Assembly: GCF_000685865.1 (NCBI RefSeq)
Contig: NZ_JMKS01000003.1
Coordinates: forward strand, 992,001 to 1,056,000
Length of the DNA stretch: 64,000 bases
From: Exiguobacterium antarcticum DSM 14480
Lineage (GTDB): Bacteria > Bacillota > Bacilli > Exiguobacteriales > Exiguobacteriaceae
Direction: 5' to 3'
The notes beneath the pieces were generated by a model. It did no database searches. It saw only the letters and a list, made by a program, of their open reading frames with translations, and was not told the DNA's origin. A program made the translations under genes and the position numbers. Shown piece by piece: positions 3,035 through 43,075 of the stretch (positions within the stretch are counted from its first letter, which is position 1; each line of letters starts with the position of its first letter).

Positions 3035-3534
3035 GTTTACAATTCCTCCTCTTATCTTTCAAAACTAAATGCGACAATCCCAACCAGATGACCTACACTT
3101 AAAGTAAAATATTTGAAAATATTTACTTTAAACCATTCAACATTTGTTCTGTTTTCTTCGGAGGAATACGTTCTGTTTCACACGCCGATCCATCGCCTAG
3201 CTCAGTAGACGATCGTCAGTGATCCATTATGTATCCAGTTTGGGATGAACAGAAAAATGTTGTCGAACGCCTTATTTATAAGGACATTCCGTATGTGGTA
3301 GGTTCGTACCAAGTCTCACTTGTAAGTAAGTGAAGCACTTAGCTACAGGTCAAATATACAAAACTCAGAAACTAACGACAATAGGTTTTTTGTAAAAAAT
3401 AGGGGAATAGTAGTAACTAGTAAAATATATTTACAGGTTGTATATGGAAATTAAAAATCTAACCATCCCTTTTTAAGAAAACGCTTACAAATATATAGAA
3501 TTTCATGCAAGTCAATATTTTTGTGAAATAAAAT
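3035..3534. other. Leader and promoter region of the S-layer-like gene
   Basis: This 500-base AT-rich stretch has no supported gene. It must hold the promoter and 5-prime leader of the S-layer-like gene (minus strand). The clearest structure is a near-perfect 33-base palindrome at 3099-3131, listed separately. I could not fix a single promoter with confidence. Confidence 0.5.
3099..3131. repeat. Near-perfect AT-rich palindrome in the S-layer leader
   Basis: The left arm TTAAAGTAAAATATTT (3099-3114) and right arm AAAATATTTACTTTAA (3116-3131) are almost exact reverse complements around one central G. It lies about 65 bases upstream of the start codon. It could be a repressor site or an mRNA 5-prime hairpin that stabilises a highly expressed transcript. 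There is no T-run, so it is not a typical terminator. Confidence 0.6.
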
Positions 3535-3567
3535 AAAACCACACACTTTATCCCAAGTGGTGGTTTT
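3535..3567 (-). terminator. Rho-independent terminator after the 3573-3986 gene
   Basis: On the minus strand an AAAACCACCACTT / AAGTGTGTGGTTTT stem closes a 6-base loop and runs into ATTTTATTT. It begins 5 bases past the stop codon. Confidence 0.7.
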
Positions 3568-3572
3568 CTACA

Positions 3573-3986
3573 TCAAGATACACTTTGATTGGCTTGTTCG
3601 ACGGCTTCCAAAAACGGTTCACGTTGAAACCGATGATCGGCGTCAGATGTTAGTTCGATCATGTTTTCCAAACGACGCAACTGGATCGGCAGACCACGTC
3701 CAATCCATTCGAGTTGCTGGTGCAATTGTCGTCTTGCGTGATCGATCGTATGTCGTTCTGCTGCTACGAATTGCCGTAAGTACTGTAAGACGTAGCCGAG
3801 TCCGAATTCAATCGGAATCCGTAATTCAGCTCCCTTGTCTTTAATCCGGATCACTCCCGCCCCGTAATGAATCGCCCGTTCCCACTCTTCACTAATCCGT
3901 TGGTACCAGTTTCCGTTCGTCAGGCAATGCGTTTCAAGTGCGCCTTTTGGACCGCTTGGCATGACAGTAAAGTAATCGATTTTCAT
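3573..3986 (-). CDS. Uncharacterised 137-residue protein
   Basis: I do not recognise this protein. The start chosen is ATG 3986, which has AAAAGGAGA at good spacing; a longer frame to 4028 would run into the terminator of the preceding gene. The product is soluble, begins MKIDYFTVMPSGPKGAL, has no signal peptide or membrane segment, and has a charged helical C-terminal half. It contains Arg/Gln-rich stretches such as HARRQLHQQLEWIGRGLP. It is monocistronic, with a terminator on each side, and lies downstream of ugd on the same strand. No function is assigned. Confidence 0.7.
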   Translation of the reverse strand: MKIDYFTVMPSGPKGALETHCLTNGNWYQRISEEWERAIHYGAGVIRIKDKGAELRIPIEFGLGYVLQYLRQFVAAERHTIDHARRQLHQQLEWIGRGLPIQLRRLENMIELTSDADHRFQREPFLEAVEQANQSVS

Positions 3987-4012
3987 ACGTCCGTCTCCTT
4001 TTCTGTATAAAA

Positions 4013-4045
4013 AATAGGATGAATCCACGGTGGACTCATCCTATT
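4013..4045 (-). terminator. Terminator after ugd
   Basis: The 16-base stem AATAGGATGAGTCCAC / GTGGATTCATCCTATT on the minus strand has one mismatch and is followed by TTTT. It sits 8 bases downstream of the ugd stop. Confidence 0.8.
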
Positions 4046-4052
4046 TGACAGT

Positions 4053-5294
4053 TCAAGAGGTTGGATTGTTCGAAAATGTTTTGTTCGGACGACCGATTCC
4101 TTCATATTGGACGTTCCCCGGTTCTTCGACGAATGCCCAACAGTTTCGACCGTCAATCAGACGTGCTGTTTTCATGTTATCCGTAAGTCGTCGTGGAGTG
4201 ACATGCTTAATTTCATCCCACTCGGTCATGATGACTGCAATCTCAGCACCTGTAACCGCTTCTTCAATCGTGTCTTTTTGATCAAGCAACGTCTTGGCTG
4301 CCGGGTCGTATCCTGTAACGATGACGCCCATTTTAGTCAGACGCTCCGCTAAACGTAACGCCGGAGCATCACGTAAGTCATCCGTTCCCGGCTTAAAGGC
4401 AAGACCCAGTAACGCGACACGAAGCCCTCGTTTAGGAGCGATTTTTTGTAAAACGTATTCCAGTTGCGCCTCATTCGTCCGGTCTGCTGCTTCAATCACA
4501 TGCAGATGCTCACCGTGCTGTTGCGCCAGTGTCGTCAACGCCGCGATGTCCTTCGGAAAACAAGAGCCTCCATAACCAGCACCCGCTTTTAAAAAGGCAG
4601 GACCAATTCGTGGATCGAGACCAATCCCATGCGCTACGTCCTCGACGTCTGCTCCGACGATATCTGCAAGTCGCGCAATCTCATTGATGAAACTGATTTT
4701 GACGGCCAAAAAACTATTTGCCGCATATTTCGTCAGCTCGGCCGTCGTCGGATCGACATGCACGATCGGCGCATTGGTCTTGAATAACTCCGTCAAATCA
4801 CTTGCTAACTGTTGATCGTGTGTCCCGATGATGACACGATGCGGGTTTCGCATGTCGCGAATCGCTGTACCTTCTCGTAAGAACTCTGGAACCATCGCAA
4901 AACGTAACGATGGATAGGCCATCTGTAACTTCTCCGTCGTTCCCGGTGGTATCGTCGACTTCATGACGACAGCAGCATGCGGCTGAATCGAATGGATTAA
5001 CTTAACCACCGCTTCGACTGCCGATAAATCACAACTCCCATCAGCCCGTTCCGGTGTCCCGACGGCTACCAGGTACAGGTCAGACACCGGATACTCCGTC
5101 GTGAAGGTCAGACGACTTTGATTTTGTTGTAACGCCCCTTCGATTCCTTCTTCGGTGATCGGAGCCACCCCGTTCGACAGTTGCTCCATCCGTTCTTTAT
5201 TTAAATCGACACAAACCACATCATGTTTCGCATCGGCTAGTCCAATCGCGGTCACAAGACCCACGTACCCTGTTCCAATTACTGTTACTTGCAT
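4053..5294 (-). CDS. ugd: UDP-glucose 6-dehydrogenase (TuaD/Ugd family)
   Basis: It oxidises UDP-glucose to UDP-glucuronate with two NAD+, supplying uronic acid for teichuronic acid, capsule or exopolysaccharide. The 413-residue length is normal for the family. The N-terminus MQVTVIGTGYVGLVTAIGLA is the Rossmann NAD-binding motif. The active-site segment GGSCFPKD, with the catalytic Cys, is present around residues 252-259, and the C-terminal UDP-binding domain is complete (GLAFKPGTDDLRDAPA). The start was set at ATG 5294 from the Rossmann motif; upstream residues are non-homologous filler. It is a single gene with its own terminator and is not next to a polysaccharide cluster here, so the end product cannot be named. 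Confidence 0.92.
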   Translation of the reverse strand: MQVTVIGTGYVGLVTAIGLADAKHDVVCVDLNKERMEQLSNGVAPITEEGIEGALQQNQSRLTFTTEYPVSDLYLVAVGTPERADGSCDLSAVEAVVKLIHSIQPHAAVVMKSTIPPGTTEKLQMAYPSLRFAMVPEFLREGTAIRDMRNPHRVIIGTHDQQLASDLTELFKTNAPIVHVDPTTAELTKYAANSFLAVKISFINEIARLADIVGADVEDVAHGIGLDPRIGPAFLKAGAGYGGSCFPKDIAALTTLAQQHGEHLHVIEAADRTNEAQLEYVLQKIAPKRGLRVALLGLAFKPGTDDLRDAPALRLAERLTKMGVIVTGYDPAAKTLLDQKDTIEEAVTGAEIAVIMTEWDEIKHVTPRRLTDNMKTARLIDGRNCWAFVEEPGNVQYEGIGRPNKTFSNNPTS

Positions 5295-37420: not shown

Positions 37421-38050
37421 TTACTTTGTACCAAACAGACGGTCACCCGCATCCCCGAGTCCAGGAACGATGTAACCATGGTCATTTAATTTCTCATCGA
37501 GTGCCGCGAGATAGATATCGACATCCGGATGCTCTTCCTGAATGCGTTTGACGCCTTCAGGTGCTGCGCAGAGGCACGCGAGCTTAATGCTTTGTGCGCC
37601 TTGTTTCTTTAAAGAGGAGATTGCGTCAGCAGCAGAACCGCCTGTCGCAAGCATTGGATCAACGACGACGAAATCGCGTTCTGCGACGTCTGTCGGTAAT
37701 TTGAGATAGTATTCTGTCGGCTCAAGTGTTTCCGGATCACGGTAAAGACCGATATGCCCTACTTTGACGTTCGGCATCATCCGAAGCATTCCGTCGACCA
37801 TCCCAAGACCGGCACGAAGGATCGGAACGATCCCCAGTTTCTTGCCCTCGATCATCTTTTGCGTCGTTTTCGTGACCGGTGTCTCGATTTCAACGTCGGT
37901 AAGTGGAAGGTCACGCGTGAGTTCATATGCCATCAATGAAGCCACTTCGTCGACAAGCTCCCGGAATTGTTTCGTTCCTGTTTCGACTTTACGCATGATC
38001 GTCATCTTGTGCTGAATCAATGGGTGATCAAATACATGTACTTTACTCAT
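37421..38050 (-). CDS. upp: Uracil phosphoribosyltransferase
   Basis: It salvages uracil to UMP using PRPP. The 209 residues include the PRPP loop [16 protein letters not shown] and the C-terminal uracil-binding [19 protein letters not shown] 38050 ([15 protein letters not shown]) follows GGAGAGGAGATGCAAAACA. In B. subtilis upp lies directly after glyA; here about 5 kb of accessory genes separates them. Confidence 0.96.
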
Positions 38051-38126
38051 TGTTTTGCATCTCCTCTCCATTCTCTTTTCGCATTGTACTCTAAAAAGCG
38101 ACCGCTTGGGAACTGTTTTCTTCGAA

Positions 38127-39104
38127 TCAATCCCCTAGCGTACTCTTCCCTTCCAGGATTGCCTTCGCAGCATAAGACCATTCGTTGTCCGGTTGTTTCG
38201 CTAATTCCTGTAACGTCGTTTTATAGTTTCCGACTTTATTTTTTTGTTCGTAAACAGCCTGCATCCATAAGACATCACTCATGTAACCGGATTCCGGAAA
38301 GTCATTCCGGTAGGCCATGTAGTCACTTTGTTTTGTTTCCTTCAGCTTTCCGGCTGCAATCAACTTATAGAAACGCGCCATACCGGCTGTCTCTTTATTC
38401 GTCAGGACATTTCCGGTCAATAGTTGGTTCGCCGTTTCATACTCTTTGGACTGAACAGAAGAGACTGCCTCTTTAAGGGCTTGCTTCGGGTCCTTCGTTG
38501 ACGCCTGCGGCTCCTCTGTTTGCTTTTCTTTCGATTGATCGGCTTTAGGCTTTTGGGTTTCCGTCTTTTTTGCTTCAGACGTCGCCAGCTTCTCATTTTT
38601 TTGCTTCAACTGTTCGACTTCTTTTTCTAAAGACGCCAGCTTTTGTTCGACGTTCGTTTGTTCCGAAACTTTTTTCGGCGCAGCTTCCTCGGAAAAATCA
38701 AATTGAGTGACCCCGATGACGAATAGACCGGCTACGACGATCCCGCCTAACCACAACGGATTGGAATGAAGATTTTTTTTCCATGGCTTGAGTTGCGGAT
38801 GGTTTTGTACCGCAGCAGGAAAGGTCGAGAAGCGTTTTCGGATTAATCGTTTCCCGCCGATTTTTCCTGCAATCGCTAATCGATAACGGTAGATTTCTGC
38901 CGGTAACGGCAGGTTTTTCCATTGCATGAATCGTGCATCGGCCTGTTCATAAAAACCCGCTTGTTCCATGATGACAATTGCTTTGAAATCTTCAATCAGG
39001 CGTTTATAATCACGTTTTGATAAACTTTTATCTTCCAACCATTTCGTAATTTGTGCAGTATTAATCGTCTCTAGTTCCGACTGTATGAATTTAGATAAGT
39101 TCAT
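38127..39104 (-). CDS. Membrane protein with cytosolic N-domain, coiled coil and TPR-like exterior; unknown function
   Basis: I do not recognise this 325-residue protein. A cytosolic basic helical N-terminal region (1-115) is followed by one membrane helix (about 117-135, [18 protein letters not shown]). Then come a coiled coil (about 150-175, [19 protein letters not shown]), a Lys/Glu/Thr/Gln-rich disordered linker (175-210) and a C-terminal helical-repeat domain with TPR-like spacing (210-325, about residue 220 [13 protein letters not shown]...). This layout is like proteins that couple a cytosolic module to envelope proteins. It is monogenic and divergent in context from no gene: both neighbours are on the same strand. 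No terminator is evident. Confidence 0.7.
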
Positions 39105-39210: not shown

Positions 39211-39855
39211 TTAATTGATTTCTTGAATCTGTCCATCTTCCATCCGCAAAATACGGTCACAATACGTCAGCATCCGTTCGTCATGGGTGATGACGATGAC
39301 GGTTTTTCCGTACTGATGTGCCTGCTTACGCAACAATTCCATCACCTGTTGTGCGTTTTGATAATCAAGGCTCGCCGTCGGTTCGTCCGCTAAGACGAGG
39401 CGTGGATCATTGACGAGGGCGCGGGCAATCGCCACCCGTTGCCGTTCCCCACCGGATAAGGCGTGGGGTAAGTGATCGTGTCTATCGTGTAAGCCAAACA
39501 CGTCTAATCGGGCAGCAGGATCAATCGTTCGACCTGCTTCTTCCGCTACGAGCTCGAGTTGTTCTGCTGCCGTCAGAAACGGAACGAGGTGTGACTCTTG
39601 GAAGATGAAGCCGATTTCTTCGAGTCGCATCTGACGTCGTCCCTCGTCCGATGTATCACTGACATTCGTGCCATCAAACTGAATCACACCACTGGAAGGC
39701 GTCTGCAGTAGACCAAGCAATTGGAGTAACGTGCTTTTGCCACTTCCACTCGGTCCGACGAGGGCAATCAGCTCACCTGTCTCAGCTTCAAATGAGATGT
39801 CGTGCAGAACCTTCATCTCTCCATACGTTTGTTCGACGTGCGTCATCTTAATCAT
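39211..39855 (-). CDS. hrtA: HrtA-like heme-efflux ABC transporter ATP-binding protein
   Basis: The 214-residue ATPase belongs to the MacB/LolD-like group, with Walker A GPSGSGKST (34-42), signature LSGGERQRVA, Walker B RLVLADEPTASLD and the switch His in VIVITHDE. It pairs with HrtB to expel excess heme, as in S. aureus HrtAB. Its ATG overlaps the hrtB stop by 4 bases (ATGA). The heme assignment rests on the HrtB likeness, the HssRS neighbours and the upstream direct repeat. Confidence 0.85.
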   Translation of the reverse strand: MIKMTHVEQTYGEMKVLHDISFEAETGELIALVGPSGSGKSTLLQLLGLLQTPSSGVIQFDGTNVSDTSDEGRRQMRLEEIGFIFQESHLVPFLTAAEQLELVAEEAGRTIDPAARLDVFGLHDRHDHLPHALSGGERQRVAIARALVNDPRLVLADEPTASLDYQNAQQVMELLRKQAHQYGKTVIVITHDERMLTYCDRILRMEDGQIQEIN

Positions 39856-40883
39856 CCCGTCATTCCTCCCATCGCATCAGCCGGCTCGAGTTTTTTCAAG
39901 GCACGTAACGGAATCAATCCACCGAGTAAGGCGGTCACGACAATCAAACCCCCATATCCGAAACTCGTTGCCCATTCAAACCGGAACGGTAAATCGTCCG
40001 GCAAGAGCTGACCGATCGTCCAGGTCAAAAGCAGACTGATTAAAAACGAGACGGCCGTCAAAACAAATATTTGCAAGACGAGTCCTTGTCCGATCGTTCG
40101 TGTCCGGATCCCGATCGCTTTTAAGATGCCGAGCTGTTTCATCTTCTGCATCGTCAAGATGTAGAAAAAGGCGGTCAAAATCAGGGAACCGATCAAGACG
40201 AGGGCAACCCGCATCATTTGGAATGAATTTTGTTCTGCCGCATAACCGGGCACTTGCTCGACGATCTGTTGTTTCGTGTACGTCGCAAGGTCCGACTGGA
40301 TCGGAACCTGACTGAGGAACGCTGACACATAACTTGTCTTCATCTTGTGTTGCCATGTGTTCCACGTCTCGAGTGTCGTCCAGAGAACCGGTGCATGACT
40401 GTACCGTCCATCGCTGACCGTCCCGACGATTTCAAACGTCGTCTTCGTCCGGAAGTCCGTGATCGTATCACCAACTTTTGTTCCGCTTTGTTTTGCATAC
40501 TCCGTATCGACCAAGACTTGTCTCGTCTTCAATTCCGACAATTGGCTTGGTCCATAGGTCGTGTCGGCTGGAGACGCAAATACCGTCACATCATCTTTTG
40601 TGCCATTCTTTTTCTCAAGGACCATACTTTGGACCCCTAACGCTTCCGTTCCGGACGGCTGATCGGCTTGATCTAAAAACGATCGTGTCAGTTGTCCTTC
40701 GGCGTCTTGGCTGAGCGCCATCTGTTCGACCGGTAAGTTCCGGACGACGGCCCCGTTATCATACGCCAGTCCGTCCGCAAGACCGGAAATCATTAAAATC
40801 AATAAGACGATCAAGGTCGTCACGATTGCCATCAAGGTGAACCGTTGTTTCATCCGAATTAATTCACGCCACCCCATCTTCAT
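39852..40883 (-). CDS. hrtB: HrtB-like heme-efflux ABC transporter permease
   Basis: The 343-residue four-helix FtsX/MacB-type permease starts MKMGWRELIRMKQRFTLMAI, very like S. aureus HrtB. It has a large extracellular domain between helix 1 and helix 2 with SDGRYSHAPVL, then AEQNSFQMM, TAFFYILTMQKMKQLGILKA and a final helix pair. By comparison with HrtB it should remove heme from the membrane. GGAGGGATAACAG precedes ATG 40883. It begins 70 bases after hssS, with its own regulatory repeat in the gap. Confidence 0.85.
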   Translation of the reverse strand: MKMGWRELIRMKQRFTLMAIVTTLIVLLILMISGLADGLAYDNGAVVRNLPVEQMALSQDAEGQLTRSFLDQADQPSGTEALGVQSMVLEKKNGTKDDVTVFASPADTTYGPSQLSELKTRQVLVDTEYAKQSGTKVGDTITDFRTKTTFEIVGTVSDGRYSHAPVLWTTLETWNTWQHKMKTSYVSAFLSQVPIQSDLATYTKQQIVEQVPGYAAEQNSFQMMRVALVLIGSLILTAFFYILTMQKMKQLGILKAIGIRTRTIGQGLVLQIFVLTAVSFLISLLLTWTIGQLLPDDLPFRFEWATSFGYGGLIVVTALLGGLIPLRALKKLEPADAMGGMTG

Positions 40884-40917: not shown

Positions 40918-40950
40918 ATCTTAGAGGGGGAAGATGAACGGAACATGAAC
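40918..40950 (-). promoter_or_regulatory. Direct-repeat operator (HssR-like) and -10 of hrtBA
   Basis: On the minus strand GTTCATGTT-CC-GTTCATCTT forms a direct repeat of 9 bases separated by 2 (plus 40931-40950). A -10-like TAAGAT follows 7 bases downstream (40918-40923), so the repeat covers the -35 position. It lies immediately after the hssS stop at 40954. The pattern matches the S. aureus HssR site GTTCATATT-N2-GTTCATATT as known from published work. Confidence 0.75.
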
Positions 40951-40953
40951 AAG

Positions 40954-42324
40954 TTACTCGGCTCGGGGAAAAGTTAAGACAAACGTCGTTCCGATTCCAA
41001 GTGTCGACTCGATAAAGACCTCTCCACCGAGTTGATGGATCGTTTCCTGCACGATCGCAAGACCGAGTCCCGTCCCGGCCGCCCCGCGCGCCGCGTCTCC
41101 CTGATAAAATCGTTCGAAGGCATGTTCGATCATGTCAGGCGTCATCCCTGGTCCTTCATCCCTGATCCGGACCGTAACCGTCTTTCCTGTGGTCTCGGCT
41201 TGAATCGAAATCAGTTGTCCGTCGGTCGAGACATGCAGTGCATTGCGGATGATGTTGTGGAAAATATGGTCCAGTGCCAGCTCGTTCGCAAGGATACGCG
41301 TCCCGTCCGGTACATCCAGCGCGACGGCAACCCCTTGTTCGTCCAGTTGATAGCTGAGTGTCTGTAACGTCGACTGAATGGCGTGACCAAGCTCCATCGG
41401 ACTCCGTGTCAGTTGCCGTCCTTCGTCTAGTCGGGCGAGTACAAGCAGTTGCCGTGTCAGTTCCGCCATCCGCGTTGCTTCCTGACCAATCGTCACCAGT
41501 TTCGCCCGGTCGTCCGGTTGCACCGTCTGTTCAAGTTGTCCGGCGTACCCTTTGATCGTCGTCAGTGGGGATTGGAATTCGTGGGAGACATTCGCGACAA
41601 ACGTTTTTCGTTCCGCATCGGATTTTGCGACGGCTTGCGCCATCTCGTCAAACCGACGCGACAGTTCCCCGATTTCATCCTGTCCCGTCGTCGCGACCGC
41701 GACGGAATAATCTCCCGTCGTCATCTGTTGTGTCGCTTTCGTCAATCGTTTGATCGGACGGACGAGATAACGAATTGAAAAGACAAGCAGCAGAAAACTG
41801 ATCAGGACGAGTAACCCGAGAAAGGCACCGACGAACAAATGCAACTCACGAATCTGCCGGCTTAAATCAGGACGGATGAAAACAGCGTCCGTTCCCGTGT
41901 CTGTTTGTAAGGCCGCGCCATACGTATTGATGACTTCGTTATCAAACAGTCCGAGTAAAAACAGATGAAACGGATACTCCCGCATCCCTTGATAGACTTG
42001 ACCGTCCCGAACCATCTCGACGATGTCAGGTGCGATCGTCTCATCCCGAAACGGATTACCGTAGCGCTCGATTTCTCCTGTATCCGAGACGACATATAAT
42101 TGAAAGCCGGTCGCACTCAGCATTTCGTAAAACGAGTCGATCTGTTGGTCCCCATGTTGTTCATAATAGGCAAAAGACGTCTGAACCGCCTCTTCGACCT
42201 TTTTACTATAAGAAGCTTGTAAGATGGTGTAATACAACAGATTACTGATCAATAAAGCAATCAAGGCCGAGCCCAGCAAGACGAGGCAAACGAGACCAAC
42301 AATCTTCGTATATAACGATTTCAT
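40954..42324 (-). CDS. hssS: HssS-like heme-sensing histidine kinase
   Basis: The 456-residue membrane sensor has TM1 (about 9-31), an extracellular sensor domain (33-160) with segments GNPFRDET, GLFDNEVINTYG and VFIRPDL that match S. aureus HssS, then TM2 (163-185), HAMP (187-238), HisKA with His 248 (VANVSHEFQSPL) and an HATPase domain with RDEGPGM and GTGLGLAI boxes. It should phosphorylate HssR when membrane heme rises. It overlaps hssR by 4 bases. Confidence 0.86.
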   Translation of the reverse strand: MKSLYTKIVGLVCLVLLGSALIALLISNLLYYTILQASYSKKVEEAVQTSFAYYEQHGDQQIDSFYEMLSATGFQLYVVSDTGEIERYGNPFRDETIAPDIVEMVRDGQVYQGMREYPFHLFLLGLFDNEVINTYGAALQTDTGTDAVFIRPDLSRQIRELHLFVGAFLGLLVLISFLLLVFSIRYLVRPIKRLTKATQQMTTGDYSVAVATTGQDEIGELSRRFDEMAQAVAKSDAERKTFVANVSHEFQSPLTTIKGYAGQLEQTVQPDDRAKLVTIGQEATRMAELTRQLLVLARLDEGRQLTRSPMELGHAIQSTLQTLSYQLDEQGVAVALDVPDGTRILANELALDHIFHNIIRNALHVSTDGQLISIQAETTGKTVTVRIRDEGPGMTPDMIEHAFERFYQGDAARGAAGTGLGLAIVQETIHQLGGEVFIESTLGIGTTFVLTFPRAE

Positions 42325-42989
42325 GACTGGGTCTCCAATCGGTAGCCGAGTCCGCGGACCGTCCGGATCTCGATCGCGTCCGTTCCTTCCAAGCGACTCC
42401 GCAGTCGTTTGATATGGACGTCAATCGTCCGGTCGTCCCCCATGAAGTCGAGTCCCCAGACGTGTTCAATCAATTCCTCGCGACTGAAAACCCGTCCCGG
42501 AAAACTGGCCAGCTGGTGCAACAGTTCAAATTCACGCCGGGGAATCGTCAGTTGGGTCGTGCCGATCATCAGCTGTTGGCTCCGTTTATCGATCGTGACG
42601 TCACCAAACCGAATGACGGGCATGCCCGCTTTTTGATAACGCCGCGCGACGGCATGAAGACGAAATACCAATTCTTCCGGATCAAACGGTTTCGTGATGT
42701 AGTCGTCCGCTCCGGCTGTAAATCCCTCCCGTTTATCCGTCAGCTCGCCGAGTGCTGTCAGCATCAAAATCGGAATTTCCTGACTTGCTCGTAACAGAGC
42801 GCATAATTCAAAGCCGCTTCGTCCCGGGACCATCACATCGAGAACCGTGGCTTCAAATACCTCTTCTCCGATCCAACGTGCTGCTTCGTTGCCATCCGCC
42901 GTCGCCCGGACACCGTGTCCATCCGCTTCAAGCGTTTCACAAATCAGTTGCTGGATGTTTGGATCATCTTCGACTACTAGGATTTTCAT
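42321..42989 (-). CDS. hssR: HssR-like OmpR-family response regulator
   Basis: The 222 residues comprise a receiver domain with phospho-acceptor Asp 51 (ATVLDVMVPG), acidic pocket EDD (7-9) and Lys in DDYITKPF, and a C-terminal winged helix (about 125-222) with DFMGDDRTIDVHIKRLRSRL. ATG 42989 follows AAAAGGAGGAACACACC. It is the first gene of the cassette hssR-hssS-hrtB-hrtA. It likely binds the direct repeat before hrtB. Confidence 0.87.
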   Translation of the reverse strand: MKILVVEDDPNIQQLICETLEADGHGVRATADGNEAARWIGEEVFEATVLDVMVPGRSGFELCALLRASQEIPILMLTALGELTDKREGFTAGADDYITKPFDPEELVFRLHAVARRYQKAGMPVIRFGDVTIDKRSQQLMIGTTQLTIPRREFELLHQLASFPGRVFSREELIEHVWGLDFMGDDRTIDVHIKRLRSRLEGTDAIEIRTVRGLGYRLETQS

Positions 42990-43027: not shown

Positions 43028-43075
43028 GAAAAACCACCCCGCACTTCTCATCGTTCGAAAAGGTCGAGGTGGTCT
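43028..43075 (-). terminator. Terminator after glyA
   Basis: A stem of ACCACCTCG with CGGGGTGGT on the minus strand has a long loop and is followed by TTTTT. It insulates glyA from the hss/hrt cassette. Confidence 0.65.

Follow-up and report, generated by a model that had tools for sequence, protein, structure and literature searches.

A probable HssRS-HrtBA heme-detoxification cassette with its HssR operator ahead of hrtB in Exiguobacterium antarcticum DSM 14480

Overview of the locus

The locus described here is very probably a complete HssRS-HrtBA heme-detoxification cassette, in which the heme signal, the binding by HssR and the efflux of heme are ascribed from its relatives. Gene identities, operator, promoter geometry and conservation were established for the locus itself. 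According to the proposed mechanism, the membrane kinase HssS would sense excess heme at the outer face of the membrane and then phosphorylate HssR. HssR-P would bind two tandem GTTCATNTT half-sites, 11 bp apart, in place of a -35 element, and would recruit RNA polymerase to a -10 box 7 nt downstream, after which HrtBA would expel heme from the membrane.

Gene content

The window, i.e., the whole analysed stretch of 64,000 nucleotides, belongs to a strain whose nearest named relatives by HrtB identity were Exiguobacterium sp. KRL4 (95%), E. undae (90%) and E. sibiricum (85%). The cassette hssR-hssS-hrtB-hrtA occupies positions 42989-39211 of the minus strand. The first-pass annotation had described a single run of regulator, kinase, permease and ATPase genes, which was borne out by the ORF calls and by Pfam; its span, 40918-42989, comprises hssR, hssS, the operator and the -10 box, and the cassette with hrtBA extends to 39211. 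HssR (42321..42989, minus strand, 222 aa) is a response regulator of PhoB/OmpR type with Response_reg and Trans_reg_C domains. It is followed, with a 4-nt overlap, by the membrane histidine kinase HssS (40954..42324, minus strand, 456 aa), in which an extracellular domain between two long helices precedes the HAMP, HisKA and HATPase domains. The gap between hssS and hrtB is 70 nt. HrtB (39852..40883, minus strand, 343 aa) is a predicted heme permease of FtsX/MacB type, assigned by the Pfam FtsX domain and a PDB relative, and it overlaps by 4 nt with the ABC ATPase gene hrtA (39211..39855, minus strand, 214 aa, Pfam ABC_tran). On the same strand, glyA (44368-43091) lies upstream of the cassette and upp (37421-38071) downstream, and an uncharacterised gene of 325 aa with a sub-threshold Pfam match, here called orfX (38127-39104, minus strand), is situated between hrtA and upp.

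Identity of the proteins

The first-pass annotation had proposed a search of HrtB and HssS against known proteins, and this led to HrtB of Corynebacterium diphtheriae on the one hand and to annotated HssS and HssS-like kinases on the other. In the PDB, C. diphtheriae HrtB was the sole relative of the window HrtB at E<=0.001 (5.2e-27). The two are homologous over nearly the full length (PDB 7w78 and relatives), and Glu217 of the window protein aligned with Glu219, which is the heme ligand of C. diphtheriae HrtB (PMC11442138). Glu217 was invariant among eight aligned Exiguobacterium sequences, as well as in all eight sequences of the cross-genus identity comparison. The N-terminal 240 aa of HssS, its sensor region, gave nine matches among 72,556 plasmid records, with HssS-like kinases on top. 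Seven of the nine were such kinases, from Priestia, Listeria (two), Paenibacillus, S. aureus (two, one of them annotated hssS) and Alkalihalophilus, and the remaining two were weak matches from Proteus covering 23% of the query. In Alkalihalophilus the HssRS-like pair had no hrtBA alongside. Identities to S. aureus were 40.5% for HssR, 30.2% for HssS (against the annotated HssS), 25.7% for HrtB and 47.9% for HrtA, the latter measured against the ATPase adjoining HrtB; the corresponding values for Listeria were 51.4, 32.8, 31.7 and 42.0%. For HrtB and HssS the identity to the S. aureus proteins is modest, which counts against the assignment. Among the best 25 NCBIfam models per protein, none reached the cut-off for HssR, HssS, HrtB or HrtA, and hrtB was without any match. 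An HssS tree that included a single outgroup kinase family left the placement unsettled, the long outgroup branch being attached with low support (0.388), and was given no weight as evidence.

On the basis of Pfam, PDB and identities we recognised an HrtB-type FtsX/MacB permease with its partner ATPase, and the sensor-region search, the identities and the neighbourhoods assign the adjoining two-component system as orthologous to S. aureus HssRS. The identity as HssRS-HrtBA was in this way upheld by domains, PDB relative, aligned glutamate and sensor-region matches. The locus could instead be an antimicrobial-peptide or cell-envelope two-component-ABC system, of Bce or HitRS type, which merely resembles HssRS-HrtBA. 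In its favour, cross-regulation between HssR and HitR takes place in B. anthracis, where the repeats of the two regulators are closely related (PMC3968170), and a mutation in S. aureus hssR alters susceptibility to plectasin, although hrtB was not induced by plectasin (PMC3001719). We nevertheless consider this reading very unlikely, as the only PDB relative of the 343-aa HrtB within the threshold is a heme exporter, its heme-ligand glutamate is kept, and the sensor region of HssS finds HssS-like kinases. A Bce-type identity was rejected on the PDB relative of HrtB and the sensor region of HssS.

The HssR operator

A direct repeat, GTTCATGTT-CC-GTTCATCTT (= GTTCATGTTCCGTTCATCTT), is found at 40950-40931 on the minus strand, 3 nt past the hssS stop and 47 nt ahead of the hrtB ATG. 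When the whole genome of 3.22 Mb was scanned for the repeat pattern with at most one mismatch, this was the one site obtained, as the first-pass annotation had predicted, and the reversed control pattern gave none. With two mismatches allowed, ten sites were found in the same genome versus three control sites; the one inspected of the nine extra sites, C3:443383, falls within a coding ORF. Since nine extra sites exceed three control matches, weak further HssR targets are possible. In 19 genomes of the genus to which the window belongs, the repeat was present ahead of hrtB with at most one mismatch in 17 and with two mismatches (GTTCATGCTCCGTTCATATA) in the other two, and elsewhere in these genomes it gave three extra matches versus seven for the control. 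The repeat preceded hrtB in all 33 aligned Exiguobacterium loci, which occupy two distinct genomic places. Of 20 loci from other Bacilli, 17 likewise had the repeat ahead of hrtB. The latter 20 were hand-picked from the better rows of HrtB matches in 12 families and form a non-random sample, biased to query-like HrtB. The three loci without a clear repeat were L110 (13/18 positions) and L128 and L129 (11/18 each); the score of L110 was equalled by 8 of 300 shuffles. The direct repeat ahead of hrtB is a further feature, next to the permease with its ATPase, the heme-ligand glutamate and the two-component system, by which the cassette was assigned to HssRS-HrtBA, and the claim of an operator inside the cassette held up, the repeat lying in the hssS-hrtB gap, occurring once in this genome at one mismatch or less, and being conserved.

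The genes are collinear and the gap between hssS and hrtB is short, so that the repeat could also have arisen by chance, with hrtBA merely ending an operon of four genes that begins with hssRS. On STRING data, Exiguobacterium and one more species have indeed been said to share the single-operon hrtBA/hssRS of group B streptococci (PMC5238366, 2017). The single occurrence of the site in the genome at one mismatch or less, its presence in all 33 aligned Exiguobacterium loci at both genomic places with a fixed 7-nt spacing to the -10 box, and its match to the S. aureus site speak against a chance repeat, to which we give hardly any credence. An operator of HssR type within the cassette, the preferred reading, would mean that hrtBA has its own promoter in Exiguobacterium in spite of the single-operon order.

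Geometry of the hrtBA promoter

The -10 box of hrtBA, TAAGAT, is located at 40918..40923 on the minus strand, 7 nt downstream of the operator (40931..40950). A TANNNT box began exactly 7 nt past the repeat in 53 of the 54 promoters counted, i.e., the window, 18 relatives of its genus, 14 sister-clade loci, 17 loci from other Bacilli and four named loci; the one exception was L044, with CATACT at this place. L110, L128 and L129 had been dropped ahead of this count, and the Paenibacillus repeat was placed by hand, the top-scoring automatic window being a different one. The promoter scan called no sigma-70 type pair at the hrtBA promoter. Because the spacing to TANNNT is fixed at 7 nt, the repeat is, judged from the sequence, predicted to occupy the place of the -35 element. 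An operator that replaces the -35 element is the layout known from activators of PhoB type. The separate promoter of HssR type that had been proposed for hrtBA is thus supported by the conserved operator and its fixed spacing to the -10 box.

In two loci from two other families of Bacilli, L124 and L127, the repeat of HssR type and the -10 spacing were kept, and HssRS was absent within ~4 kb. Since repeat and spacing are retained with no HssRS nearby, this suggests control of these hrtB genes by an HssRS encoded elsewhere.

Comparison with characterised systems

The S. aureus HssRS-HrtBA system has four homologous genes, and its repeat, GTTCATATT-GA-GTTCATATT, lies 48 nt ahead of hrtB, compared with 47 nt in the window; in both, the GTTCATATT-N2-GTTCATATT arrangement is followed by the same 7-nt spacing to the -10 box. 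They differ in that hssRS is divergent from hrtBA in S. aureus, whereas all genes in the window are on one strand, and in that S. aureus HssS has F25 and R163, where the window HssS has L and H. The HssRS-HrtAB system of Listeria monocytogenes shares with the window the order hssR-hssS-hrtB-hrtA on one strand. Its repeat is more degenerate (12/18 versus 16/18 in the window), and its HssS, unlike that of the window, keeps F25 and R163. In Listeria, deletion of hssR or alteration of the promoter repeat abolished the induction of hrtAB by hemin (PMC6305404). In contrast to the window, HrtBA in corynebacteria is controlled by ChrSA/HrrSA rather than HssRS (PMC11442138). The actinobacterial loci of our sample, L068-L075 (8 of 31), contained HrtB-like genes, with neither a match to HssRS nor the repeat.

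Two further loci deserve a separate mention. A second HrtB-like permease in Listeria (L077, 5001-6104), with 35% identity to the window HrtB, has no two-component system alongside and carries a degenerate HssR-like repeat, GTTCATTTTCCGTTTACATA, that precedes the start of the gene by 24 nt; a TATACT box apparently lies upstream of the repeat. In L043 (G007, 3501-4528), hrtB is split over two frames (residues 58-343 and 1-96), and hssRS, hrtA and the operator are intact; either the gene is decaying or the split stems from an error in sequencing.

Transcription of hssRS

The gap between glyA and hssR (~101-103 nt) contains a terminator-like hairpin with a T run (43029..43075, minus strand) and folds at -36.7 kcal/mol, with z -2.98. 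On visual inspection, the corresponding gaps in the relatives showed a similar hairpin and T run; folding was computed for the window. From the T run to the ribosome-binding site of hssR only ~22 nt are left. Out of a maximum of 13, the best sigma-A-like score within 120 nt of hssR reached 8 for the window and lay at 8-9 for 17 relatives, and the promoter scan found no promoter-like site on this strand from glyA to hssR. The separate promoter that the first-pass annotation had attributed to hssRS was therefore left unsupported, as the region ahead of hssR lacks a good match to a sigma-A promoter and contains a terminator-like hairpin. Expression of hssRS may come about by read-through or from a weak promoter.

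One reading, compatible with the function as HssRS-HrtBA, is that hssRS owes most of its expression to transcription running through the glyA terminator, which would couple the capacity for sensing to the transcription of glyA. The hairpin between the two genes, the low sigma-A-like scores and the empty promoter scan all point in this direction, whereas consensus scans overlook weak promoters or those of other types. In the sister clade, moreover, hssR adjoins other DNA and yet also directly follows a hairpin, of a different sequence and with different upstream DNA (by eye). We regard read-through from glyA as plausible, at somewhat less than an even chance. As the sister-clade hssR has a hairpin with no glyA upstream, glyA itself is inessential to the arrangement, and hssRS may depend on terminator read-through from any upstream unit, be it glyA or another.

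Gene order and genomic place

The one-strand order had been pointed out earlier as a departure from the divergent arrangement in S. aureus. The difference as such stands, but the implied oddity does not, since hssR-hssS-hrtB-hrtA likewise lay on one strand in 13 of the 20 HrtB loci picked by hand from other families of Bacilli. The rest comprised two loci with hrtBA-hssRS on one strand, one divergent locus, which was the closest to S. aureus in sequence, and four with no HssRS within ~4 kb. Both Listeria and a Paenibacillus had the gene order of the window.

The flanking glyA and upp, and the proposal that the cassette was inserted into an older glyA-upp order, were confirmed, with the addition that orfX also lies between hrtA and upp. 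In 24 of 27 loci of Bacilli outside Exiguobacterium (24 of 30 with three loci of the Exiguobacterium family included), glyA and upp were no more than 1.5 kb apart. These loci came from 30 of 41 genomes and represent Bacilli in general rather than B. subtilis by name. In the genus of the window, the cassette came after glyA in all 18 relatives, and orfX-upp followed close behind in 17 of them; in E. flavidum, extra DNA flanked the cassette on both sides. Where orfX lies next to hrtA its identity among the relatives ranged from 42 to 95%, as for a fast-evolving gene. In the sister clade, cassette and operator were present in 14 of 14 loci, a count that is unable to show absence, as these loci had been found by an HrtB peptide pattern. 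Here glyA, orfX and upp were absent from the stretch around the cassette, and orfX directly followed glyA in all five regions read (of eight genomes). In the class sample, 13 of 14 sister-clade genomes had an HrtB match at E<=0.001; the one with none, G122, has likely lost the heme system. Since the sister clade carries cassette and operator elsewhere, the cassette seems to be of long standing in the family, with a place beside glyA that appears specific to the genus of the window.

The proposed heme pocket of HssS

S. aureus HssS has been proposed to bind membrane heme by Arg94, Arg163, Phe25 and Phe128, and to a lesser extent Phe165, and single alanine changes at F25 and R163 lowered its activation (PMC11237747). 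A review from 2024 expresses doubt about direct heme sensing by HssS (PMC11442138). In all 33 Exiguobacterium HssS, R94, F128 and F165 were kept, F25 was replaced by Leu and R163 by His; these two differences out of five residues count against the heme reading. Among 16 HssS from other Bacilli, residue 163 was Arg in ten and His in six, residue 94 was Arg in 12 and replaced in four, and residue 25 was Phe in all 16. As both R163 and R94 vary among other Bacilli, the pocket residues do not define the HssS family.

The AlphaFold model of HssS had a pLDDT of 79.9 and a pTM of 0.49, with residues 124-126 at low confidence; its alignment drew on 20 of 23 Exiguobacterium loci, all but L055, L058 and L061. 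The first long helix (2-57) includes residue 24, residue 162 falls close to the beginning of the second (154-202), and the model is consistent with a position of both at the outer membrane border. His163 could serve in either propionate binding or ligation of iron. A speculative and rather improbable extension is that HssS of Exiguobacterium and of Priestia-like Bacilli holds heme in another way than S. aureus HssS, with His, close to the beginning of the second transmembrane helix, in place of the propionate-anchoring Arg163 and as a possible axial ligand of the iron; the published docking of S. aureus HssS has no such ligand. In a literature search with most subscription papers outside its scope, no description was found of the Exiguobacterium HssR operator or the His163 variant of HssS.

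Implications

Taken as a whole this is an ordinary, Bacillus-type set for heme sensing and export, with its control site where expected, and the swapped pocket residue of HssS is the one unusual detail of an otherwise standard cassette. With its natural replacement of Arg163 by His, Exiguobacterium HssS could be used directly to test the membrane heme pocket that has been proposed. The layout of the HssR promoter, with two 11-bp units and exactly 7 nt to the -10 box, is nearly invariant in the compared loci of Bacilli, so that targets of HssR can readily be predicted. A heme defence known mainly from pathogens is hereby extended to Exiguobacterium.
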